DNA from: Candidatus Bathyarchaeota archaeon
GTDB taxonomy: Archaea > Thermoproteota > Bathyarchaeia > Bathyarchaeales > Bathycorpusculaceae
Direction of reading: 5' to 3'
NCBI GenBank assembly: GCA_003151735.1
Contig: PLYI01000118.1
Location: 3,417 to 67,416, forward strand
Length of the DNA stretch: 64,000 nt
Part shown: in pieces, positions 44,309-61,069 of the stretch
Numbering within the stretch: position 1 is the first letter of the stretch
Layout: the number at the start of each line of letters is the position of its first letter
Position numbers and translations under genes: made by a program
The notes under the pieces: generated by a model
Database searches by the model: none
Seen by the model: only the letters and a program-made list of their open reading frames with translations
Told to the model about the DNA's origin: nothing

Positions 44309-45040
44309 ATGTTTGAAGATTTCAAGGAAAAAGTGGGAAAACTCCAAAACAAAAACGACAGTGAAATCCCTTTAATTTCTACTGCATTAGCGCCCGAGAT
44401 TACAGAGAAACTAAGGAAAAACGGAATTGACCCCGATAACGTTACCATTCAGCAACTATTTCCACCAACACTAGACAGCGACGGCAACGACTTGTCTTTA
44501 ATGTCGGGCGCTGAATGGGAAATCATGATTACATATGCCAAAACTCGCAAGTATTTGCTTGAGAAGTATCCTCAGTCGCAGCAAGAAGCACAAATGTTAG
44601 GGCAAGAGTGGGAGGAAGAGCCAGAGGAGCCTTACCAGATTAACATTGCAAAGACCCAAGATGACCCGCAGAGAAGAGTTTTTGTTCACGCTTTATTCCA
44701 AATGAAAGTGATTTATGACAAGGTTGAGGTTCTGCAGCGCAATGCTTCAGATTATGAAAAATATTGTTTGCGCCTCTATTGGCACTTAACCTTCAACTGG
44801 AATCATGCACCAAACGTAGAATCCTTCCGAGAAGTCTTACATGACTGCGACATCTTCGAAATTGTTGAATCCTACTTTAAAATCTGCAGAAAATACCACC
44901 TACCCACCTTTGAGGAACCCTACGACTTTCTAACAGAGCAACGACGTTTGGAAATAAAGCTGGAAGGCGACATGCTAAAGCGGACTACAAGTTACAACGA
45001 TTTTGAAATCCACATTTCAATTTTGGAGGAATTAACCTGA
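44309..45040 (+). CDS. Hypothetical island protein, 243 aa
   Basis: ATG 44309. Acidic and helical (EWEIMITYAKTRKYLLEKYP, then QEWEEEPEEPYQI); the C-terminal half is rich in aromatic residues (YCLRLYWHLTFNWNHAPNVE). No motif is recognised. Its stop overlaps the CTG start proposed for the next gene, and the two face the ParB-like and ABC-GNAT genes in the same direction, so it is the first gene of a four- or five-gene cassette of viral type. Confidence 0.55.
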   Translation: MFEDFKEKVGKLQNKNDSEIPLISTALAPEITEKLRKNGIDPDNVTIQQLFPPTLDSDGNDLSLMSGAEWEIMITYAKTRKYLLEKYPQSQQEAQMLGQEWEEEPEEPYQINIAKTQDDPQRRVFVHALFQMKVIYDKVEVLQRNASDYEKYCLRLYWHLTFNWNHAPNVESFREVLHDCDIFEIVESYFKICRKYHLPTFEEPYDFLTEQRRLEIKLEGDMLKRTTSYNDFEIHISILEELT

Positions 45041-45471
45041 GCGAAATCGTTGAAAGACGCTTGGAATTTCTAAAGCTCGAAGCTAAAGGCTTTTCCCTGT
45101 GCGAAATCGTGAAGCTACTGAGCGAAAAATACCAAACCTCAGAGAGAAACATCTACTATGACGCAGAAACCCGCAACACCTGGCAACCCGTCTTAACCCA
45201 ACTATTCGACCTAGACAAAGCACGACTTGTTGTGATGAATCGCTATGACTTCCTCTACCGTCAAGCAAGCCTGCATTTTCAAACTGCAAGTGAAGCCCAA
45301 AAACCAGTTTACTTGTCCAAAATGGTGGAGATCACAGATCGGCTGGTAGCTTTGTTGGGTTTGGAAACTCTGAAAGAAAAACAAGAAGCTGAAAAAAGGG
45401 CGGTGTCAGTGGAAAATGAACTTGCAAAGAACGAACCGTTACTTCAGTCACTGTCTGTATTTAGGAAATAG
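45037..45471 (+). CDS. HTH protein, terminase-small-subunit-like
   Basis: The conventional start is TTG 45061 (136 aa), but GGAGGA at 45025-45030 lies 6 nt before an in-frame CTG at 45037, which overlaps the upstream stop and yields SEIVERRLEFLKLEAKGFSL, a continuous helix; I prefer CTG (144 aa). A helix-turn-helix (GFSLCEIVKLLSEKYQTSER) is followed by a helical tail, as in small DNA-binding proteins near packaging genes of head-tailed viruses. Terminase function is a guess from context. Confidence 0.5.
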   Translation: MSEIVERRLEFLKLEAKGFSLCEIVKLLSEKYQTSERNIYYDAETRNTWQPVLTQLFDLDKARLVVMNRYDFLYRQASLHFQTASEAQKPVYLSKMVEITDRLVALLGLETLKEKQEAEKRAVSVENELAKNEPLLQSLSVFRK

Positions 45472-45483
45472 GAGATTTGTTTG

Positions 45484-46044
45484 ATGGAAAAGAAAACTAC
45501 GATAAGAATCCCGGAAGCATATGTTCCATTGCTGGAAGATGTTAGGCTTTTAACAGCAGATCAAAACAACCCCAATCGTACTAGCCTTAAGCAGCAAGAG
45601 CAAATCTGGAGAAGCTTGCAAAAGTATGGTTGGGCATATCCGATAATAACTAACAAGGAAGGAGTTTATGCTGATGGAGAGCAGAGAGCTGAGGTTTGCA
45701 AGCAACATGGCGAGTTTTTTGTTCCTGTTCTCCGTTTACCAGTCAGTGATGTGGATAGGAGGCTGCTTAGGCAGATTCTAAACAAACTCAAGGGCAAACA
45801 CAACAAAGAACTTGACAGCGCCGAGTACATTCGCATTCTTCAGCAGGGTGAGAAAGAGGATTTGAAGGCGCTTCTTGAATCAGTTGGCGAGAGGCTGCCA
45901 GAGGATTTAGATGAACGCAAATTTTCACTTACTATTCCTGAGACCTACGAGATTATCGTTGAATGCAAAGGAGAAGAACAACAAAAGCAGATTTTTGAGA
46001 AGTTGAAATCGGAGGGGTACAAACTACGGATTTTGACATTGTAA
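45484..46044 (+). CDS. ParB/Srx-like N-terminal domain protein
   Basis: 186 aa; ATG 45484 lies 8 nt after AGGAG. The ParB-like fold is recognisable as LLTADQNNPNRTSLKQQEQI, YGWAYPIITNKEGVYADGEQ and RAEVCKQHGEFFVPVLRLPV, where the GEQR motif replaces the ParB GxxR (NTP-binding/nuclease) box. In phages this domain commonly sits with ABC-GNAT genes; it may act as a nuclease or NTPase. It overlaps the proposed start of the ABC gene by 19 nt. Confidence 0.7.
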   Translation: MEKKTTIRIPEAYVPLLEDVRLLTADQNNPNRTSLKQQEQIWRSLQKYGWAYPIITNKEGVYADGEQRAEVCKQHGEFFVPVLRLPVSDVDRRLLRQILNKLKGKHNKELDSAEYIRILQQGEKEDLKALLESVGERLPEDLDERKFSLTIPETYEIIVECKGEEQQKQIFEKLKSEGYKLRILTL

Positions 46045-46706
46045 AGCATTGGGATCAAGCGGACAGTTTTAGATCACAAAGCGTGGTTGGAAGTTATACT
46101 CTTTCTGATGTTAAGTTGGAGAAGCGTTTTAGGGGTTCTTTGCCCCTGGAGGATTTTGATTGGCAAATAGGAGTTATCGTTGGGCGCAGTGGCTCTGGCA
46201 AAACAAGCATAGCTAAGCAGCTTTTCTCAGATGCTTACATTCGAGAGTTTGAATACACAAACAAGTGTGTTTTGGATGACTTTCCCAAAGAGCTTGAAAC
46301 AGGTGAGATTACAAAGATGCTTTGCAGTGTTGGCTTTGCGTCTCCGCCTGATTGGCTTAAAGCATATGATTGCTTAAGCCAGGGAGAAAAGATGAGGGTA
46401 GATATTGCCCGTGCTCTTTGTTTAGAGAAGCCACTAATTGTATTCGATGAGTTTACCTCTGTTGTAGATAGAGAGATCGCTAAAGTTAGCGCCTTTGCAA
46501 TCAGCAAGGCGGTTCGCAGAAGTTCTAAGAAATTCATAGCCGTTACTTGCCACTATGACGTGGTCGATTGGTTAGCTCCAGACTGGGTTTTCTGCACTGA
46601 CACAATGGAATTTAGCCGAAAAAAAGAAGTCGGCCGCCCGTTGAAATCCAAATATATCGGTGCGGCGCTAACCTTTGGAAGATGTTTCGGCAATATCACT
46701 ATCTGA
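46026..46706 (+). CDS. ABC-type ATPase, N-terminal part of a probable ABC-GNAT protein
   Basis: Conventional start GTG 46083, but the frame stays open and family-like upstream (DFDIVKHWDQADSFRSQSVV). GGAGGGG (46011-46017) lies 8 nt before an in-frame ACG at 46026, so a longer product is likely. Walker A is VGRSGSGKTSIAK, the ABC signature CLSQGEKMRVDIARAL and Walker B LIVFDEFTSVVD, all soluble, with no transporter partner. The frame ends at 46706. Before that, an A7 run at 46619-46625 allows a -1 slip into a frame that reads RPPVEIQIYRCGANLWKMFR and continues as the GNAT domain. The protein is therefore probably one ABC-GNAT polypeptide made by frameshifting, or a broken gene. Confidence 0.75.
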   Translation, partial: TDFDIVKHWDQADSFRSQSVVGSYTLSDVKLEKRFRGSLPLEDFDWQIGVIVGRSGSGKTSIAKQLFSDAYIREFEYTNKCVLDDFPKELETGEITKMLCSVGFASPPDWLKAYDCLSQGEKMRVDIARALCLEKPLIVFDEFTSVVDREIAKVSAFAISKAVRRSSKKFIAVTCHYDVVDWLAPDWVFCTDTMEFSRKKEVGRPLKSKYIGAALTFGRCFGNITI

Positions 46707-47095
46707 ATGGCAAGCTTGGAGCAGGTGTCCGATGCTACGTTGCTCTCTATCAAGACAAGCCCATAGCTTTCATCGCTATAGTTTGCATTAGGATGAGAGC
46801 AAAATATTATCGAGTCAGTCGATTAGTTGTCTTGCCGGATTATCAAGGGATTGGCGTAGGAAAACGATTATTGAACTTTATCGCTGAACTTTATTCTTCT
46901 CAAACAAAAATGCCCTTCTACATACTAACAAGCAACCCTCAGATAATTAGAGGCAGCATGAAAAACTGGAGAATTAGTCGTTTCGGTCATGCAAGCAAGG
47001 GAAGAGGCAATTCAAGAATAAATAACGAAATAAAAAGTAGTCTCAGCAGAAAACGCATAACCGTTTCTCTTCAGTACATCCCGACTAAATGTTAA
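46682..47095 (+). CDS. GNAT acetyltransferase-like domain (C-terminal part of ABC-GNAT)
   Basis: 137 aa from ATG 46682, with no ribosome site of its own. The acetyl-CoA-binding core is visible as RLVVLPDYQGIGVGKRLLNFIAE (motif A, QGxGxG), preceded by RCYVALYQDKPIAFIAI. In frame upstream of the ATG it continues without stop (EIQIYRCGANLWK) to the A7 tract shared with the ABC frame. Phage ABC-GNAT proteins and the Mom DNA-modifying enzyme have this fold, so a nucleobase-modification role is possible but unproven. Confidence 0.7.
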   Translation: MFRQYHYLNGKLGAGVRCYVALYQDKPIAFIAIVCIRMRAKYYRVSRLVVLPDYQGIGVGKRLLNFIAELYSSQTKMPFYILTSNPQIIRGSMKNWRISRFGHASKGRGNSRINNEIKSSLSRKRITVSLQYIPTKC

Positions 47096-48722: not shown

Positions 48723-50192
48723 TTATTTCTTCTTCAATTTTGGGCACTCCTCGCCTAGACACCAACCGTACCTTTGGACAGTTCTGCAGCTGTAGGGTCT
48801 AACTTCGTCTCTGTCTACTTTGTTTGTGAAAAACCAGTTTACTTGATAGCGGGTTATAGAATCGTCAAAATCGTTAAGGCACCTGAAAAGATCAATAATG
48901 CTTTCCGGGCTATGGAACCCAAGGCCGTACGCTTCCTGCAGAAGAGCAAGGCGCTGTTGGTGGCACATCTCCCCCGAGTTCAGGGCTTTAACAAAACAAG
49001 GCCTAATTCCATCTGCACTCTCAAAGGACAAATTCCTTGGCACATACTTTATTCTTTTTTCTTTTAGTGCTTTCCTAAATTCCCGAGCCTTATCCATCGC
49101 TAACATAATGTCTTTTTGTTTGAGTCCATAAAGTTTGAAGTATTCAACACCTCTAACCTTATCCTCCTCCAGTTGACCGTCAACAATGAGACATTCTTCA
49201 CCAGATTTTTCATGAATAGAAAATGGGATTCGGCACATCCGGTTAATGTCGCCTACAACAGCATAGTCAATGAAGCGATAATCGTGATCCTGTAAAAGTG
49301 CAAGTTGAAGCTGTTTGTAAACCTGCTTCCAAAACTCAAGCTTCTGATTAATTTCATAAACGGAATCAAAGAAGACATGAACATGATAACCCCGCTTTGT
49401 CCTAATAACAAGCGGCTTAATGTTTAGGCCGCCAAGTTGCGCTAGAAAAAATTTCACTTCATCTCTCAATTCTGACTTTCGTTTTTGGGTTTCTGCTTCG
49501 GTAAGTAAATCGCTTTTTTTGCAATAGTCAAAGTCGAAAAATACCTTCTCTATTCCTAATGGTTGGGCTTTGTCTTTTTCTGGTTGAACACTGATAAATG
49601 CAGGTGCCTTGTTTTCGGCGCATTCCTCAATAAAAGGAAACACGTCATTGGGATTGTCGGTGAACCACCTTTCAGGGTTTCCCAAATCTCGACCGAAAGC
49701 ACCAAAAAACTCCAAAAGGAACCCTTCCTTTGTTATATGATCTTCCGCTGTCTTCACTTTTTCGATGTGCTCTGAAGGCGCAAATAGATCATCTTCCTTC
49801 GCTTGCTTAGATTGTTGGAAAAAGCTTTGACATTGCCAATAAAGTTCTCTAGGTACCCAAAGCTTGCCATCTATTTTTTCTTCAAGAAGTTCAGCCTTAA
49901 AAAGTTCTCCAAGAGCAGAATCAAAATCCTTTTCATCAATCATCGTTACTTTTAGAATTGCCTGACTATCGTAAGCTCGATTAATGACTATTGCAGTAAC
50001 AATTCGACCTCTATTTGAGCTCCAAAATTTTGGGTTTATGATAAAATTGTTAGCGTTACTTGTTTCTTCTGTTTGCTTAGTTCCAGCAATGTTTCTTACC
50101 ATTGTTTGTATTCTCTGTCTTTCCCTTGCAGCCTCTTTGTTTGACAGAAATCCAGTGTTTGTTCGTCGCGTTTCCGGCATTGGTTCTCGCAA
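48723..50192 (-). CDS. Plasmid/virus-type archaeo-eukaryotic primase
   Basis: 489 aa. The first ~150 residues are winged-helix-like. The AEP catalytic motifs follow: FFDFDYCKKSD (metal-binding Asp-x-Asp), LVIRTKRGYHVHVFFDSV (the [S/T]xH-type motif) and IDYAVVGDINRMCRIPFSIH (third Asp and the R-x-x-R-x-P). A C-terminal region ends with YSCRTVQRYGWCLGEECPKL, which has three Cys like the Fe-S/PriL-type or PriCT ends of replicative primases. Probably primes replication of the element. Encoded opposite to its neighbours. Confidence 0.78.
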   Translation of the reverse strand: MREPMPETRRTNTGFLSNKEAARERQRIQTMVRNIAGTKQTEETSNANNFIINPKFWSSNRGRIVTAIVINRAYDSQAILKVTMIDEKDFDSALGELFKAELLEEKIDGKLWVPRELYWQCQSFFQQSKQAKEDDLFAPSEHIEKVKTAEDHITKEGFLLEFFGAFGRDLGNPERWFTDNPNDVFPFIEECAENKAPAFISVQPEKDKAQPLGIEKVFFDFDYCKKSDLLTEAETQKRKSELRDEVKFFLAQLGGLNIKPLVIRTKRGYHVHVFFDSVYEINQKLEFWKQVYKQLQLALLQDHDYRFIDYAVVGDINRMCRIPFSIHEKSGEECLIVDGQLEEDKVRGVEYFKLYGLKQKDIMLAMDKAREFRKALKEKRIKYVPRNLSFESADGIRPCFVKALNSGEMCHQQRLALLQEAYGLGFHSPESIIDLFRCLNDFDDSITRYQVNWFFTNKVDRDEVRPYSCRTVQRYGWCLGEECPKLKKK

Positions 50193-51538: not shown

Positions 51539-54292
51539 TTGAAGCCTGAAGAGGAAGCTCGCAAAAAGATTGATGGGTTGCTTGAGAAGGCTGGCTGGAT
51601 CGTGCAGGATTATAAGGATTTGAATCTTGGCGCTAGCGTTGGCATAGCTGTTCGAGAGTTCCCGTTGAAGGGTGCGGGTTTTGCTGATTACCTGCTTTTT
51701 GTTGAACGTCATGCCGTCGGTGTTGTTGAAGCCAAGCCTGAAGGCACCACATTGAGTGGAGTTTCTGAGCAAACTGAGAAGTATCTGAGAAGTTTGCCTG
51801 AGAGTATTCCTCATGTTGGCGATGTGTTGCCTTTTGCGTATGAGAGCACTGGTGTTGAGACTTTTTTTAGGGATTTGCGTGACCCTGAACATCGTTCTCG
51901 AAGGGTTTTTGCTTTTCATATGCCTGAGACCTTGCATGAATGGGTACATCAAGAGACTACCCTTAGGGGCAGATTGAATCACATGCCTCCCCTAATTACT
52001 GAAGGGTTACGCGATTGTCAAAAAGAAGCCATTGGAAACCTAGAGTGGTCACTTAAAGAATCAAGACCACGAGCACTCATTCAGATGGCAAGCGGCAGTG
52101 GCAAGACCTTCACTGCTGTGACTGAAGTTTATCGGTTAATCAAGTTTGGTGGTGCTAGGCGTGTTTTGTTTTTGGTTGATCGTAACACTTTGGGGAAGCA
52201 GACTTTGCAAGAATTTGCCCAATACCGAACGCCTGATGATGGACGTAAATTCACCGAATTATACAACGTCCAGCGGTTACTATCAAACAAGATTGATCCA
52301 GTTAGCCGCGTATGCATAACCACTATCCAGCGACTCTATTCCATGCTTAGGGGCGAGGCTGAGTTCTTAGAGGAAAATGAGGAAACCTCAGCTTTCGAAA
52401 TGAGATTTCGCGACATGCGCCCAGTTGAAGTCGCTTATAATCAGCAGATTCCGCTGGAAATGTTTGATGTAATAATAACCGATGAGTGCCACAGGTCTAT
52501 TTACCATCTTTGGCGTCAAGTTCTTGAGTACTATGACGCATTCATAATTGGATTAACTGCGACGCCCTCCAAGCAGACTTTGGGTTTCTTCAACCAGAAC
52601 TTGGTTATGGAGTATGGACATGACCGCGCCGTTGCCGACGGAGTAAACGTCGCCTACGATGTTTACCGAATTTCAACAAAAATCACTCAAGGCGGAAGCA
52701 GAGTCGAATCTGGCTTCTATGTCGACAAACGTGATAAGCTCACAAGGAAGGTTCGCTGGGAACAGCTAAACGAAGACCTCGAATATGATAGCAAAGAATT
52801 GGATCGAAGCGTAGTTGCCAAAGACCAAATCAGAACCGTGATTAAGACTTTTAGGGATAAATTGCCAATCGAAATTTTTCCAGGGCGCAAAGAGGTGCCT
52901 AAAACGTTGGTCTTTGCAAAAGATGATAGCCATGCTGAAGACATAGTTGAAATTATTCGCGAGGAGTTTGGGAAGGGCAACGATTTCTGCAAGAAAATCA
53001 CCTACCGCACTATGGAGCGGACCGAGGATTTGATTGCCAGTTTTCGCAACTCCTACAATCCACGCATCGCCGTTACCGTGGACATGATTTCAACCGGTAC
53101 AGACATACGCCCCTTAGAGTGCTTGCTTTTCATGCGTGATGTGCGTTCAAGCGTTTATTTTGAGCAGATGAAAGGTAGAGGTACTCGCACAATCTCTGAC
53201 ACAGACCTAAAAGCTGTCACACCTGGAACCGAGAGCAAAACCCACTTCGTAATCGTTGACGCTGTTGGAGTTTGCGAAAGCGACAAGACAGATTCACGCC
53301 CCCTAGAGCGCAAGCGAAGTACGCCTTTTGAAACCTTGGTTGGATTAGTAGCTTTAGGCGTTAGGGATGTGGATACTTTAACTTCCTTAGCGGGCAGACT
53401 TGCCCGAGTTGACAGAGAATTAGACAGTGATGAGCGCAAAGAAATAGAGACAGCAGCCGGCGGAAAATCGTTTAAACAAATAGTTAACGGGCTATTTGAC
53501 GCGGTGGATCCAGATAAGCAAATTGAGAAAGCTAAGCAGCTTTTCAAAACTGACACACCAACAACTGAGCAAATCAAGAAGGCTTCTGCTGAATTGGTTA
53601 CTACTGCTTGCGCTCTATTTGACTCACCACTTTTCCGGGGAACTCTTGTGGAAGTAAAGCAGAGAAACGAGCAAACCATAGACACAACCAGCAAGGATGA
53701 ATTGTTTTTCGCCGGTAGTGACCCCTTAGTGGTTGAAAGAGCAAAATTAACGGTGAAATCATTCAAAGACTTCATCGAACACAACAAAGACGAACTAATT
53801 GCCCTACAAATAATTTACAGTAAACCTTACAGCCAACGTCACTTGACCTATGAGGCAATCAAAGAATTAGCCAACGCTCTACAAAAACAGCCTTACAATT
53901 TGAATCTAGAACTTGTCTGGTTGGCTTATCAGCAACTAGAAAAATCCAAAGTTAAAGCTGCAGGACCACAAAAACTTCTGACAAATACCATATCTCTAAT
54001 TCGCTTTGCTACCGGACAAGCCAATGTCCTTGAACCATTCGAAGATGAAGTCAACCGCAATTTTAGTTCCTGGCTACAAAACCAAGAAAGCCACGGCACA
54101 CACTTCACCCCCGAGCAGACTGAATGGCTAAATATGATAAAACAACACATAACCACCTCCCTAAACGTCGGAATAGACGACTTTGAACTATCACCCTTCA
54201 ACCAAAAAGGCGGAGCAGTCAAAGCCTACCAACTATTCGGAAAAGAACTAAACAAAACACTAGAAGAACTAAATACGGTGCTAACAAAGTGA
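51539..54292 (+). CDS. hsdR: Type I restriction enzyme R subunit
   Basis: 917 aa from TTG 51539. The N-terminal PD-ExK nuclease is seen as GFADYLLFVERHAVGVVEAK. A superfamily 2 translocase follows with Walker A MASGSGKTFTAV (about 183-191), DECHRS box (about 315-320), GLTATPS, and motif VI as FEQMKGRGTRTIS. The C-terminal half is the EcoEI-type tail that binds the methyltransferase. With S and M it cuts unmodified foreign DNA after ATP-driven translocation. Its stop overlaps the hsdS start by 4 nt. Confidence 0.93.
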   Translation: MKPEEEARKKIDGLLEKAGWIVQDYKDLNLGASVGIAVREFPLKGAGFADYLLFVERHAVGVVEAKPEGTTLSGVSEQTEKYLRSLPESIPHVGDVLPFAYESTGVETFFRDLRDPEHRSRRVFAFHMPETLHEWVHQETTLRGRLNHMPPLITEGLRDCQKEAIGNLEWSLKESRPRALIQMASGSGKTFTAVTEVYRLIKFGGARRVLFLVDRNTLGKQTLQEFAQYRTPDDGRKFTELYNVQRLLSNKIDPVSRVCITTIQRLYSMLRGEAEFLEENEETSAFEMRFRDMRPVEVAYNQQIPLEMFDVIITDECHRSIYHLWRQVLEYYDAFIIGLTATPSKQTLGFFNQNLVMEYGHDRAVADGVNVAYDVYRISTKITQGGSRVESGFYVDKRDKLTRKVRWEQLNEDLEYDSKELDRSVVAKDQIRTVIKTFRDKLPIEIFPGRKEVPKTLVFAKDDSHAEDIVEIIREEFGKGNDFCKKITYRTMERTEDLIASFRNSYNPRIAVTVDMISTGTDIRPLECLLFMRDVRSSVYFEQMKGRGTRTISDTDLKAVTPGTESKTHFVIVDAVGVCESDKTDSRPLERKRSTPFETLVGLVALGVRDVDTLTSLAGRLARVDRELDSDERKEIETAAGGKSFKQIVNGLFDAVDPDKQIEKAKQLFKTDTPTTEQIKKASAELVTTACALFDSPLFRGTLVEVKQRNEQTIDTTSKDELFFAGSDPLVVERAKLTVKSFKDFIEHNKDELIALQIIYSKPYSQRHLTYEAIKELANALQKQPYNLNLELVWLAYQQLEKSKVKAAGPQKLLTNTISLIRFATGQANVLEPFEDEVNRNFSSWLQNQESHGTHFTPEQTEWLNMIKQHITTSLNVGIDDFELSPFNQKGGAVKAYQLFGKELNKTLEELNTVLTK

Positions 54293-55671
54293 CCGCAACT
54301 CAGAATCAACTAGCCTCCGAGGACTTACCGAGAGGTTGGGTTTTGACGCAACTAGGCGAAGTAATATCAGTTCATAGCGGTGAAGGCTTAACAAAACGCA
54401 ATATGAAAACTGAAGGCAAACATGCTGTATATGGAGGTAATGGAGTCGCCGGCTACTCTGATAAATACCTTATTGAAGAAAGTAAAGTCATAATTGGTAG
54501 AGTTGGAGCTAAATGTGGGGTCGTCCACTTGACCCTTCCTAAGAGCTGGGTTACGGATAATGCACTCATAGTTAATTCATGGGGAATGGACACAAAGTTT
54601 TTGCTTTATGCTTTACGAACAATGAATTTAAACCGACTTTCAGTAAGTACAGCTCAACCTGTTATATCCTCGACTAAAATCTATCAACTTAAGTTTAAAC
54701 TTCCGCCTTTTAATGAGCAGCGACATATAGCCAGCAAGGTTGAGGAGCTTTTTTCTTTTCTCGATGTGGGAGTAGAATCGCTTCGCAAAGTCAAAGCGCA
54801 ACTCAAGCGTTATCGTCAAGCAGTTCTAAAATACGTTTTCGAAGGGAAACTAACTGAGGAATGGCGAGAAACCCACAAAAAACAAATTGAATCAGCACAA
54901 AAACTGCTGGAGCGCATAAAACAAGAAAAAAGAAAAGAGCCAAAATATCGAGAAATGGCATCAATCAACCCGTCTGGACTACCTGAAATCCCGAATAGTT
55001 GGGAATGGACAAGACTCGGAGAGATTCTTTTCCTCTCAAACGACAGGTGCAATCCGATAACTTCCGAAAATCAGCGCTTTGTTGGTCTTGAGCATATAGA
55101 AAGTGGAACAGGAAGGCTACTTGGTTTCGGCAAATCAACTGCAACCAGAAGCACAAAGAATCGATTCAAAAAAGGGGATTTGCTTTATGGAAAACTCCGA
55201 CCATACTTAAACAAAGTCTGGGTTGCCAGCTTTGACGGTGTATGCTCAACAGATATTCTAGTATTTAGGAAAAATAGCTTCCTCAACAATGAATACCTTG
55301 CCGCTTTTATGTTGAACCAAGACTTTGTAGAGTATACAAGACAGCACATGTCCGGCGTTCAACATCCACGTATAAGTTACTCCACACTTTCCCAGTATAT
55401 TCTTCCAATTCCTCCTTATGCTGAACAGGTCGTTATAGCCGAAAAAATCCAAAAAACCTTTTCAATAACAGAAAATTCCGAAGAAACCATGCTGCAAGAA
55501 ACAAAACAAGCGGAAATCTTACGTCAAAGCATCTTAAAGGTTGCCTTTGAAGGTAGGCTTGTTCCTCAGAACCCTAATGATGAGTCTGCTAAGGAGTTGT
55601 TAGAGCGCATTAAAGCTGAGCGTTTCAGTAATAAAGAATCTAAGTTGGAGTTGCCTTGTTATGTCAAATGA
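54289..55671 (+). CDS. hsdS: Type I restriction-modification specificity subunit
   Basis: 460 aa from GTG 54289. Two target-recognition domains of the type PRGWVLTQLGEVISVHSGEG and PNSWEWTRLGEILFLSNDRC are separated by helical spacers (LPPFNEQRHIASKVEELFSF; IPPYAEQVVIAEKIQKTFSI), the usual symmetric S-subunit layout. Each domain reads half of a bipartite DNA sequence. It overlaps hsdM by 11 nt. Sequence specificity cannot be deduced. Confidence 0.93.
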   Translation: MTATQNQLASEDLPRGWVLTQLGEVISVHSGEGLTKRNMKTEGKHAVYGGNGVAGYSDKYLIEESKVIIGRVGAKCGVVHLTLPKSWVTDNALIVNSWGMDTKFLLYALRTMNLNRLSVSTAQPVISSTKIYQLKFKLPPFNEQRHIASKVEELFSFLDVGVESLRKVKAQLKRYRQAVLKYVFEGKLTEEWRETHKKQIESAQKLLERIKQEKRKEPKYREMASINPSGLPEIPNSWEWTRLGEILFLSNDRCNPITSENQRFVGLEHIESGTGRLLGFGKSTATRSTKNRFKKGDLLYGKLRPYLNKVWVASFDGVCSTDILVFRKNSFLNNEYLAAFMLNQDFVEYTRQHMSGVQHPRISYSTLSQYILPIPPYAEQVVIAEKIQKTFSITENSEETMLQETKQAEILRQSILKVAFEGRLVPQNPNDESAKELLERIKAERFSNKESKLELPCYVK

Positions 55672-57127
55672 ATCAGCGTCAATAGTTCAGAGAGTTTGGA
55701 ATTACTGTAACGTTCTTAGGGATGATGGAGTTAGTTATGGCGATTATGTTGAGCAGTTGACTTATTTGCTTTTCTTGAAGATGGCTGATGAGCAAACTAA
55801 GCCGCCGTTCAATAAACTTTCAACTATTCCTAAGGGGTTTGATTGGCAAAGCCTCACATCTAAAGACGGGACAGAGCTGGAAACACAATACCGCAAACTT
55901 CTCGAATCCTTAGGCAAAGAAAAAGGAATGCTCGGCGTAATATTCCGCAAAGCCCAAAACAAAATCCAAGACCCCGCCAAACTCAAACGACTAACTGAGC
56001 TAATTAATAACGAGACTTGGATGGGGATGGACATTGACGTTAAAGGCGAAATCTACGAGGGCTTGCTCCAAAAGAACGCTGAAGATACTAAGAGCGGTGC
56101 TGGACAGTATTTCACTCCCAGACCCCTGATTGATGCTATGGTTAAGGTTGTGAATCCTGAACCTGGAAAAACCATTAACGATCCCGCGTGCGGAACTGGC
56201 GGATTCATTATTGCAGCCCACAACTACATTTCCAATCCAAAGAACTTTCAGTTAGATGTGGAGCAAAAACGTTTCCTTAGGAATGGAACTTTTAGCGGAA
56301 AAGACATAGTTGACTCTGTAGCGCGTCTTTGCGCTATGAACTTGTTCTTGCACGGCATTGGCGGAGACACCAGCCCAGTTGAAGTAGGTGACTCGCTCAT
56401 ATCTGACCCAGGAATCCGTTTTGATTTTGTGTTGACTAATCCACCATTTGGCAAAAAAAGCAGCGTAACCCTAACCAATGGCGATGGCAAAGCCGACAAA
56501 GAAGCCTTAACCTATGAGCGCCAAGACTTCTGGGCAACAACAAGCAACAAACAACTAAACTTCCTCCAACACGTCAAAACCCTCCTAAAAATCAACGGCA
56601 AAACCGCAATAGTTGTCCCCGATAATGTTCTCTTTGAAGGCGGAGCAGGCGAAACAGTAAGACGCAAAATCCTCCACGAATGCGACGTCCACACGCTCTT
56701 ACGCTTGCCAACGGGCATATTCTACGCTCAAGGAGTAAAAGCAAACGTGCTCTTCTTTGATCGCAAACCAGCCAGCGAAACACCCCAAACCGACAAACTC
56801 TGGATATATGACCTGCGTACAAACAAGCATTTCACACTTAAAACAAGCACCTTAGCCTACAAAGACCTTGAAGACTTCGTTGCCTGCTATAACCCAAAGA
56901 ACCGCCATGAACGGAAGGAAACAGACCGCTTCAAATCCTATACTTACAACGAACTTATGCAACGCGACAAAGCAAACTTGGACATCTTCTGGCTAAAAGA
57001 CGAAAGTCTAGAAGACACCGACAACCTGCCACCACCAGAAATTCTAGCAGCAGAAATAGCAGAGAACTTAGAGACAGCGTTAGAACAATTCAATAATATT
57101 ATTGAAGAACTAAGGAAGAAAGAATAA
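55661..57127 (+). CDS. hsdM: Type I restriction-modification N6-adenine methyltransferase
   Basis: 488 aa. N-terminal HsdM helical domain, SAM-binding DPACGTGGF (about 174-182) and the catalytic NPPFG motif (about 260-264, in DFVLTNPPFGKKSS) show adenine-N6 methylation. ATG 55661 lies inside the hsdS end, so translation is coupled. The order R-S-M with all overlaps suggests a single transcript. Confidence 0.94.
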   Translation: MSNESASIVQRVWNYCNVLRDDGVSYGDYVEQLTYLLFLKMADEQTKPPFNKLSTIPKGFDWQSLTSKDGTELETQYRKLLESLGKEKGMLGVIFRKAQNKIQDPAKLKRLTELINNETWMGMDIDVKGEIYEGLLQKNAEDTKSGAGQYFTPRPLIDAMVKVVNPEPGKTINDPACGTGGFIIAAHNYISNPKNFQLDVEQKRFLRNGTFSGKDIVDSVARLCAMNLFLHGIGGDTSPVEVGDSLISDPGIRFDFVLTNPPFGKKSSVTLTNGDGKADKEALTYERQDFWATTSNKQLNFLQHVKTLLKINGKTAIVVPDNVLFEGGAGETVRRKILHECDVHTLLRLPTGIFYAQGVKANVLFFDRKPASETPQTDKLWIYDLRTNKHFTLKTSTLAYKDLEDFVACYNPKNRHERKETDRFKSYTYNELMQRDKANLDIFWLKDESLEDTDNLPPPEILAAEIAENLETALEQFNNIIEELRKKE

Positions 57128-59788: not shown

Positions 59789-61069
59789 TTGGCTGAGGGA
59801 GAGGTTGGCTTCCAAAATCAGGATTCGAGCGTTCTTGGCATAAAGCAAGATACAGACGGGAAGTCGGATGAGAATAGGACAAGCCGCTTGCACCAACCCC
59901 CAAAACAGCCAATCATAGAATGCCCTGATTGTTCCTCAGAGCGTCTCTACAAGGATGGTTTACGTTATCCTTCAGACGTCGAGCCTATTCAACGGTGGCT
60001 CTGCAGGGACTGCGGTTACAGATTTTCTGAAAAACCATTACAAGAAAGTCATAAATGGTCAATAAATATCCCAACAACCTTACCTTCTAGTCGCCAAATA
60101 TGCGCATTAGAGGCGAAAAATTTGGATTCTGCAATGGAAACAAAAACCGTTGCGGGATTGGAGAAAATCACTGAAGCAGACATTAAAGGTAAACTACTGC
60201 AATTTGCGTTCTATTGCAAAAAAGAAGGCTTAAAAGAAATAACCACTCGCACTTTCACCACAGCAATAAGAAGCATATCAAGATACACCCAATCAATCAC
60301 TGACCCAGAAAGCGTAAAAGAAGCCCTTGCAAAAATGACGGTTACCGAAAACACAAAATTCCTCTACAGTTGTGCCTACACTAGATTTCTAAGTTTTCTT
60401 GGGAAAACGTGGAAAGCACCCAAATACGACTTTGTTGAAAAACTACCTGAATTTCTGCCGACTGAAATTGAGCTAGACCAACTTATTGCTGGATGCGGAA
60501 GAAGGGTAAGTGCACTCTTGCAATTGATAAAAGAAACAGGTATGCGGCTCGGAGAATGTCTAAGGTTAACCTGGATCTGTATCAACCTTGACACGCGAAT
60601 TATAACCTTAACGCAAGCTGAAAAACGCAGCTCACCCAGGGTCTTCGCCGTATCAACAACGCTGATAGGAATGCTCAATAGTTTGCCTAGACAAAACGAC
60701 AAAGTCTTCGGACGAATGAACAAGAGCAGCGCAACGACGTGCCTAATTAACCAGAGAAAACGGATCGCTGCAAGGATAAATAATCCTAGAATCGGAAAAA
60801 TCCACTTCCACCTTATCCGCCACTGGTTTGCAACCATGCAATATCATAAAACACATGACATCCATTTTGTCGCAAAACTGCTAGGACATAAACATACCAT
60901 GACTACTGAAATCTACATTAACATGGAAAAAATGGCGTTCAACGTAACTTCTGATGAATATACAGTTAAGGTTGCAACAACTCTCGACGAAGCCTGCAAA
61001 TTCTTAGAAGTTGGCTTTGAATACGTAACAGAAATCGATGGAAATAAGCTGTTTAGAAAGCGAAAATGA
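59789..61069 (+). CDS. Tyrosine recombinase with N-terminal zinc ribbon
   Basis: 426 aa from TTG 59789. A zinc ribbon at about 47-80 (CPDCSSERLYKDG...CRDCGYRFSE) is followed by a SAM-like core-binding domain (KLLQFAFYCKKEGLKEITTR...FLSFLGK) and the catalytic domain: Arg in KETGMRLGECLRLTW, HxxR in FHLIRHWFAT, KLLGHKHTMTTEIYI with nucleophile Tyr at about 376. It is the last gene of the island and borders IF-5A, so it probably integrated the element. The zinc ribbon may aid DNA targeting. Confidence 0.85.
   Translation: MAEGEVGFQNQDSSVLGIKQDTDGKSDENRTSRLHQPPKQPIIECPDCSSERLYKDGLRYPSDVEPIQRWLCRDCGYRFSEKPLQESHKWSINIPTTLPSSRQICALEAKNLDSAMETKTVAGLEKITEADIKGKLLQFAFYCKKEGLKEITTRTFTTAIRSISRYTQSITDPESVKEALAKMTVTENTKFLYSCAYTRFLSFLGKTWKAPKYDFVEKLPEFLPTEIELDQLIAGCGRRVSALLQLIKETGMRLGECLRLTWICINLDTRIITLTQAEKRSSPRVFAVSTTLIGMLNSLPRQNDKVFGRMNKSSATTCLINQRKRIAARINNPRIGKIHFHLIRHWFATMQYHKTHDIHFVAKLLGHKHTMTTEIYINMEKMAFNVTSDEYTVKVATTLDEACKFLEVGFEYVTEIDGNKLFRKRK

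Follow-up and report, generated by a model that had tools for sequence, protein, structure and literature searches.

Proteins that join an ABC ATPase domain to a GNAT domain are recorded in a number of phages, including gp86 of Gordonia phage Jace, the 'GNAT' of Leptospira phage LE3 and Orf24-25 of Lactococcus phage P335, where they often follow a ParB-like gene. The archaeal gene described here encodes the same two domains in the same order; however most of the phage proteins are read from one open frame whereas this copy needs a -1 shift. PHROGs assigns no function to phrog_11143, the family matched by our gene, and membership of the named phage proteins in it is not assumed. In the accessible part of a paper on jumbo phages (PMC7824862) a GNAT coupled to an ABC ATPase and predicted to modify a DNA base is named in Tenacibaculum phage pT24, which is also among the ABC-GNAT matches found here, and the word 'frameshift' occurs 0 times in the main text of that paper. 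A literature search by title and abstract returned no report of ABC-GNAT frameshifting, though its coverage was partial and an earlier report is possible.

Recoding itself is known from other genes. The closest likeness in outcome is dnaX, where a long and a short product (tau and gamma) come from one gene, by ribosomal frameshifting in E. coli and by transcript slippage on a run of nine A in Thermus, as far as the part of the source available to us describes it (PMC1088944). The dnaX protein is unrelated, and the related ABC-GNAT genes appear to use opposite defaults and opposite shift directions. Archaeal or prokaryotic frameshifting is covered by several sources, each available only in part (PMC8211752, PMC8037382, PMC5009743, PMC3711429), and the archaeal -1 cases described there include Saccharolobus fucA (A-AAA-AAT), halovirus tail proteins and the methanogen Mg-chelatase (A_AAA_AAR) (PMC8037382, PMC8211752, PMC5009743). 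In fucA and the Mg-chelatase, as here, an A-rich slip site lies in an ORF overlap, but these are different genes and none of the cases in the accessible text is an ABC-GNAT gene. One of many coupled ABC-transporter clusters is mentioned as perhaps also frameshifted (PMC3711429); as 'GNAT' and 'acetyltransferase' are missing from the main text of that source, it cannot be told whether ABC-GNAT genes were included.

The locus lies in a 64,000-nucleotide stretch of DNA (the window) within contig C70 of a 3.5 Mb assembly of 124 contigs. The window is of archaeal origin, since curated cut-offs are passed by L3 and L4 of the archaeal type and by the DNA polymerase D large subunit, which NCBIfam names 'DNA polymerase II large subunit'. 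On its + strand an ABC ATPase is read in the zero frame at 46026-46706 (PF00005, 1.2e-9; phrog_11143, 3.3e-58), terminating at TGA 46704-46706, and a GNAT acetyltransferase domain (PF13508, 7.7e-10; PF00583, 3e-8; phrog_11143, 1.2e-32) occupies the -1 frame of the same strand, open from 46616 to its stop at 47093-47095 and reading KKRSRPPVEIQIYRCGANLWKMFRQYHYLN. The two frames overlap at 46616-46706 (+). Inside this overlap seven A residues at 46619-46625 (+) are followed by G and read CGA AAA AAA GAA in the zero frame, which gives the register of a slippery heptamer, A_AAA_AAA. An earlier note on this DNA had proposed that a -1 slip at this run joins the two frames, and the arrangement it described is confirmed in the sequence. 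The overlapping frames of that description stood, but its gene start at 46026 did not, as the codon there is ACG and the first ATG, GTG or TTG of the ABC frame is the GTG at 46083. Alignment with relatives suggests a start near 46026, which has not been shown. At the place where other copies start the ABC frame with ATG, GTG or TTG (46011-46040) ACG is present in the window and in nine close relatives (L015, L016, L017, L066, L067, L068, L070, L071 and L074), in each case preceded by a GGAGGG-like string, and L069 has AAG there; it is possible that ACG is used as a non-standard start codon.

The two frames match one protein family without interruption. Residues 11-199 of the ABC frame align to positions 14-200 of the phrog_11143 profile (357 positions, function unknown) and the GNAT frame, from its second residue, aligns to positions 197-351; the profile is continuous across both frames, the gapless match to phage ABC-GNAT proteins by which the earlier note had suggested that its reading be checked. 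An AlphaFold model (30 rows) of L104, a naturally fused relative, gives an ABC plus GNAT fold with a mean pLDDT of 87 and places the join after the final strand of ABC (196-199) and ahead of the first of GNAT (209-214). Foldseek returned mainly ABC ATPases as the best solved structures and the GNAT protein of Leptospira phage LE4 as the best viral model, and by sequence the sole match of the GNAT domain to a solved structure was an N-alpha-acetyltransferase (E 2.3e-4).

The arrangement recurs among close relatives. The window's own genome carries five ABC plus GNAT copies, the four others being 64-88% identical to the window copy in ABC, and in all five the A run and the ABC stop codon keep their positions and GNAT is in the -1 phase. 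We searched 61 genomes (the window's own, 31 of the genus and 29 of the family or order) and 26 of them had some ABC match, counting distant ones. Close copies numbered 27 loci, reduced to 26 by dropping one without a GNAT match (L064), while one with only the ABC end present (L065) was kept. In 25 of these 26 genome copies GNAT is in the -1 phase with an overlap of 88-148 nt, the exception being L058 in the +1 phase, and among copies with the conserved phase ABC identity falls to about 50%. IMG/VR contigs, the hosts of which are undetermined, gave 73 loci; the best 34 (L074-L107) comprise 32 in the -1 phase, one fused (L104) and one in the +1 phase (L106), with identities to the window ABC of 61-81% for L074-L104 and L107 and about 50% for L105 and L106. 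L106 departs from its relatives in being split with GNAT in the +1 phase and in having nine consecutive T at the junction. A phylum-wide search found phrog_11143 matches in 58 of 398 genomes and in 0 of 14 control genomes, and among the matches listed all clear split copies were in the window's genus, with two genomes (G061, G377) unresolved.

For the A run itself we compared 57 copies, namely the 26 genome copies and 31 of the 34 best IMG/VR loci, omitting L104, which is fused, L105, which has no A run at this site, and L106, whose GNAT is in the +1 phase; as these were excluded, the phase should be judged on the unselected sets of 26 and 34 loci. The copies are related and form 22 clusters at 85% identity or 16 at 80%. 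Their runs are A7 in 24, A9 in 31 and A8 in two, and every one of the A7 copies (24/24) is in the only codon register in which the zero frame reads A_AAA_AAA. An A_AAA_AAN heptamer stands at the site in the ABC frame in 57 of 57 copies and 22 of 22 clusters, which exceeds chance, the 22 cluster representatives having only four others among their 4698 ABC-frame codons. The ABC stop falls 85-88 nt past the run start in 56 of the 57. Past the run the short product thereby has 26 more residues, a tail that is translated from DNA at the start of the GNAT region and had been called 'short and odd'; it is short, yet the conservation of its end indicates that it is not noise. Synonymous differences from the window copy are suppressed in the overlap, with pS of 0.63-0.92 in ABC and GNAT and 0.12-0.52 in the overlap (15 comparisons, ABC alignable without gaps in 10), and dN is 0.06-0.22 in ABC and GNAT with synonymous change near-saturated. 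Judged by these comparisons the overlap is constrained in both frames. Comparison of the copies thus documents a conserved phase, slip site, stop and protein continuity, all of which support the -1 recoding proposed in the earlier note; no protein, ribosome-profiling or transcript data stand behind the recoding.

On this comparative support we consider it very probable that the locus is one gene with two proteins, a zero-frame ABC ATPase and an ABC-GNAT protein made by a -1 slip. Ribosomes staying in the zero frame would make the ABC ATPase with its 26-residue tail and stop at 46704, while a fraction, at a frequency that is only inferred, would slip back one base at 46619-46625 with Lys tRNAs re-pairing on AAA and continue in the GNAT frame to give the full ABC-GNAT protein. 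The conserved end of the short product points to a two-product gene rather than to rescue of a broken one. The likely use, also an inference, would be to fix how many ABC subunits are made for each ABC-GNAT subunit. As ABC ATPases are active as dimers, a set ratio could allow mixed dimers carrying one GNAT domain.

Signals that might stimulate the slip are not uniform. A possible stem-loop just 3' of the slippery site (46633-46666, +) has a predicted fold of -14 kcal/mol and is weak in the window (z -1.24 for 50 nt, -0.03 for 72 nt). A downstream stem is strong only in L017 (z -3.1) and absent from the predicted folds of L054, L062 and L019. We therefore rejected a universal downstream RNA structure, leaving a possible stem in the window's subgroup only. 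Across the 22 clusters the archaeal copies show no excess of upstream Shine-Dalgarno sequence over codon use, the upstream motif being GAG in 13, GAA (as in the window) in two and lacking in seven against a GAG:GAA background of 146:94.

Across the wider family we assembled 252 loci (L074-L325) from IMG/VR, phage records and bacterial genomes, the relatives being taken as the best 80 of 593 and the best 80 of 429. ABC precedes GNAT in all 252, as one open frame in 209, a -1 split in 40, a +1 split in two and a same-frame split in one; one of the -1 splits (L322) is broken further inside GNAT and retains an ordinary fused junction. From 68 phage records with an ABC match 19 regions were examined: ten are fused, seven are split in the -1 phase, L158 is a same-frame split and L151 was scored +1 because only the later part of GNAT matched, its first GNAT piece being -1 by coordinates. 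L158, from Tenacibaculum phage pT24, has a stop between ABC and the remainder of GNAT, which share one frame, and read-through, error and decay cannot be distinguished. The seven -1 splits (Lactococcus P335, four Streptococcus phages, Oenococcus Vinitor-27 and Enterococcus 9184) end the ABC frame at the same YHYL position. In-register slip sites are present in Oenococcus (A_AAG_GGC) and Enterococcus 9184 (A_AAA_AAG); no heptamer was found at the junction of the Lactococcus and Streptococcus phages, where T_TTT is no more than a candidate by eye, and four of these loci have other heptamers further downstream. Six fused relatives (L104, L177, L200, L210, L225 and L242) have a run of ten A. Chromosomal single-ORF archaeal homologues, which we take to be COG2401 and which are mostly about 480-560 aa, gave both domains in order in 14 of 43 loci, several of them duplicates. 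No A run or SD-CTT string was found in the 18 junction codons of each, and they are too distant at the junction to be a fair control.

Either the ribosome or the RNA polymerase could be what slips. Were the polymerase to slip on the A run, some transcripts would carry one extra A and encode ABC-GNAT in one frame. Slippage of this kind is possible in the 31 of 57 copies with A9, relatives with a fused A10 exist, and Thermus dnaX uses A9 in this manner in the accessible part of its description (PMC1088944). The window run, however, is A7, below the about nine A in question, and polymerase slippage would not require the single register seen in 24 of 24 A7 copies, related and not independent as these are. 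We regard it as a minor though live possibility for this gene; a ribosomal slip is likeliest for the window A7, being favoured by the run length and the strict codon register, and remains an inference that the sequence does not decide.

Three further explanations fare much worse. ABC and GNAT could be separate proteins, with GNAT started from an internal codon by translational coupling, for which an in-frame ATG is available at 46682-46684 (+); the Lactococcus, Streptococcus, Oenococcus and Enterococcus phage records do annotate ABC and GNAT as two genes, and many frame-shifted ABC-transporter clusters are classed so in the part of that study available (PMC3711429). The ATG is probably not a start. 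Before the ABC stop the GNAT frame lacks ATG in 23 of the 57 A-run copies and lacks ATG, GTG and TTG altogether in 18, which makes a separate GNAT unlikely and bears out the earlier view that GNAT has no proper start of its own. In the L104 model the position of the ATG is in the helix that follows the first GNAT strand, so that, with the join lying between two strands, a protein started there would be missing a portion of the fold. Six split phage records (L147-L150, L152 and L154) have an annotated GNAT gene that begins 57-192 nt past the start of the GNAT match, and 209 of the 252 homologues are one open frame. Separate proteins are accordingly very improbable. Phase variation, in which the run length would change between generations and switch GNAT on and off, is equally hard to sustain: L058 and L107 (both A8) and L104 (A10) do differ in run length from their relatives, but switching would mix the phases, and the 60 unselected copies are 57 in -1, two in +1 and one fused, with the overlap itself under extra constraint. 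A sequencing or assembly error or a decayed pseudogene, which a homopolymer in a fragmented assembly (124 contigs, contamination 5.36%) might suggest and which includes the misread eight-A run named earlier as a refutation, is very unlikely: GNAT is in the -1 phase in all but one of the 26 genome copies and in 32 of the best 34 IMG/VR loci, and both domains combine little amino-acid change with synonymous change close to saturation.

At the same junction the fused homologues have a signal of another kind. The +1 shift of prfB, the RF2 gene, is signalled by a Shine-Dalgarno sequence and then CTT, in a sequence and spacing laid out as in the fused ABC-GNAT genes. From the 209 fused loci we dropped two containing N, leaving 207 sequences in 123 clusters at 70% identity. 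A Shine-Dalgarno run of at least 5 precedes an in-frame CTT or GTT in 97 of the 123 clusters, against 3.1 expected from a synonymous codon shuffle, and in 93 of these 97 the spacing is exactly 3 nt, as in prfB. The remaining 26 clusters have no such run of 5, and inspection by eye suggests other candidates in some of them; the RF2-like signal is thus common among fused homologues without being universal. The junction residue could be located in 103 of the 123 clusters, and where it is Leu, 73 of 79 clusters use CTT (10.6 expected), while for Val 22 of 24 use GTT (2.7 expected). A stop in the +1 frame lies at the Leu of the HYL motif (Met in eight) in all 121 clusters with the motif against 44.2 expected, L314 and L316 lacking the motif, and +1 stops ahead of it are avoided (11 against 48.0 expected). 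The +1 stop is fixed 25-27 codons after the CTT/GTT motif in 94 of 100 clusters scored. As the clusters are related these expectations are guides and not exact probabilities, yet the contrast is still large.

The likeness to prfB has limits. In RF2 frameshifting the motif is CUU-stop, in the part of the source available (PMC10885494), whereas at the ABC-GNAT junction no stop codon directly follows the CTT or GTT in the 100 clusters scored, the next codon being CAA in 39, CGG in 35 and CAG in ten; in addition 28 of the 100 have GTT rather than CTT, and a +1 shift in a fused ABC-GNAT gene would shorten the protein. The string may work like the signal of RF2 but is not prfB.

Taken with the split copies, these signals imply that opposite gene layouts may make the same pair of proteins, an ABC ATPase with a tail of about 26 residues and an ABC-GNAT protein. 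In the archaeal-type copies and some Gram-positive phages the short protein would be the default and the long one made by a -1 shift; in most fused homologues the long protein would be the default and the short one made by the inferred +1 shift at the same junction; and the few fused A10 genes could use transcript slippage. We think it reasonably likely, with real room for doubt, that ABC-GNAT is near-universally recoded in tailed viruses of bacteria and archaea, with both products kept in nearly every lineage, the alternative-frame stop selected and the means swapped several times, between a -1 shift on A_AAA_AAR in archaeal viruses, a -1 shift on A_AAG_GGC, A_AAA_AAG or perhaps T_TTT in Gram-positive phages and the RF2-like +1 shift in most fused genes.

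The neighbourhood of the gene is viral in character. Directly upstream on the + strand is a ParB-like protein (45481-46044; phrog_620 ParB-like partition protein, 7.9e-13; phrog_498, 4.9e-15) whose stop falls inside the start region of the ABC frame. Before it, at 45061-45471 (+), a small protein of 136 aa with a TTG start has 32% identity over 109 aa (E 4.8e-8) to a protein of viral contig L075 that is encoded just upstream of the terminase large subunit; from this position alone it is perhaps the small terminase subunit, and no PHROG match below 0.06 was found for it. A conserved provirus protein of 243 aa and unknown function at 44309-45040 (+) has 70.8% identity over 243 aa to a protein beside another ABC/GNAT copy, L067, and no Pfam or PHROG match at E 0.01. 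Gene order on L075 is ParB, ABC, GNAT, the small protein, terminase large subunit (phrog_2, 9.3e-41) and portal, and among phage records several have a ParB-like upstream neighbour and several, not all, have terminase genes downstream. No terminase match was found in the window, whereas three other loci of its genome have one (L018, L019 and, weakly, L017), which means that this copy may no longer be used. Together with similarity to L067, from another genome of the genus, spanning 44408-47078 of the window, this makes the window copy probably part of a provirus remnant.

Other traces of mobile elements were seen. GNAT gene fragments, many of them 3', lie on contigs C1, C15, C40, C63, C64, C70 and C79 of genome G000 besides its five full copies, some near contig ends, and related proviruses have likely integrated and decayed repeatedly in the host genome. 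Two GNAT matches without ABC in the window's genome (L002 and L006) look truncated, as their similarity begins just after the junction. At 48723-50192 (-) a protein with similarity in its middle to the archaeal DNA primase small subunit and at its C-terminus to the large subunit, below curated cut-offs, looks like a fused primase of a mobile element. Three adjacent genes at 51539-57127 (+), read from their sequences only, resemble a type I restriction-modification set and are flanked on one side by the primase-like gene and on the other by a tyrosine-type integrase (59789-61069, PF00589).

As the gene is often near ParB-like and terminase genes in related viruses, a role in modifying or handling viral DNA is our best guess, its biochemical function being inferred. 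Membership of the Mu Mom family was not supported: the GNAT domain has no PF25680 match at E 0.01, and hhalign of the GNAT alignment (A4) against a single Mu Mom sequence, the one Mom sequence used, gave a probability of about 0.1%.

For annotation the consequence is that some phage records list the ABC-GNAT gene as two unrelated genes. For the study of recoding, the ABC-GNAT gene offers dozens of natural variants of one recoding site. If the +1 reading holds, it would add an RF2-like signal outside prfB, used for shortening a protein, and two opposite gene layouts kept for the same product pair. The family would then provide a natural setting in which to test why viruses need ABC and ABC-GNAT subunits in a ratio.
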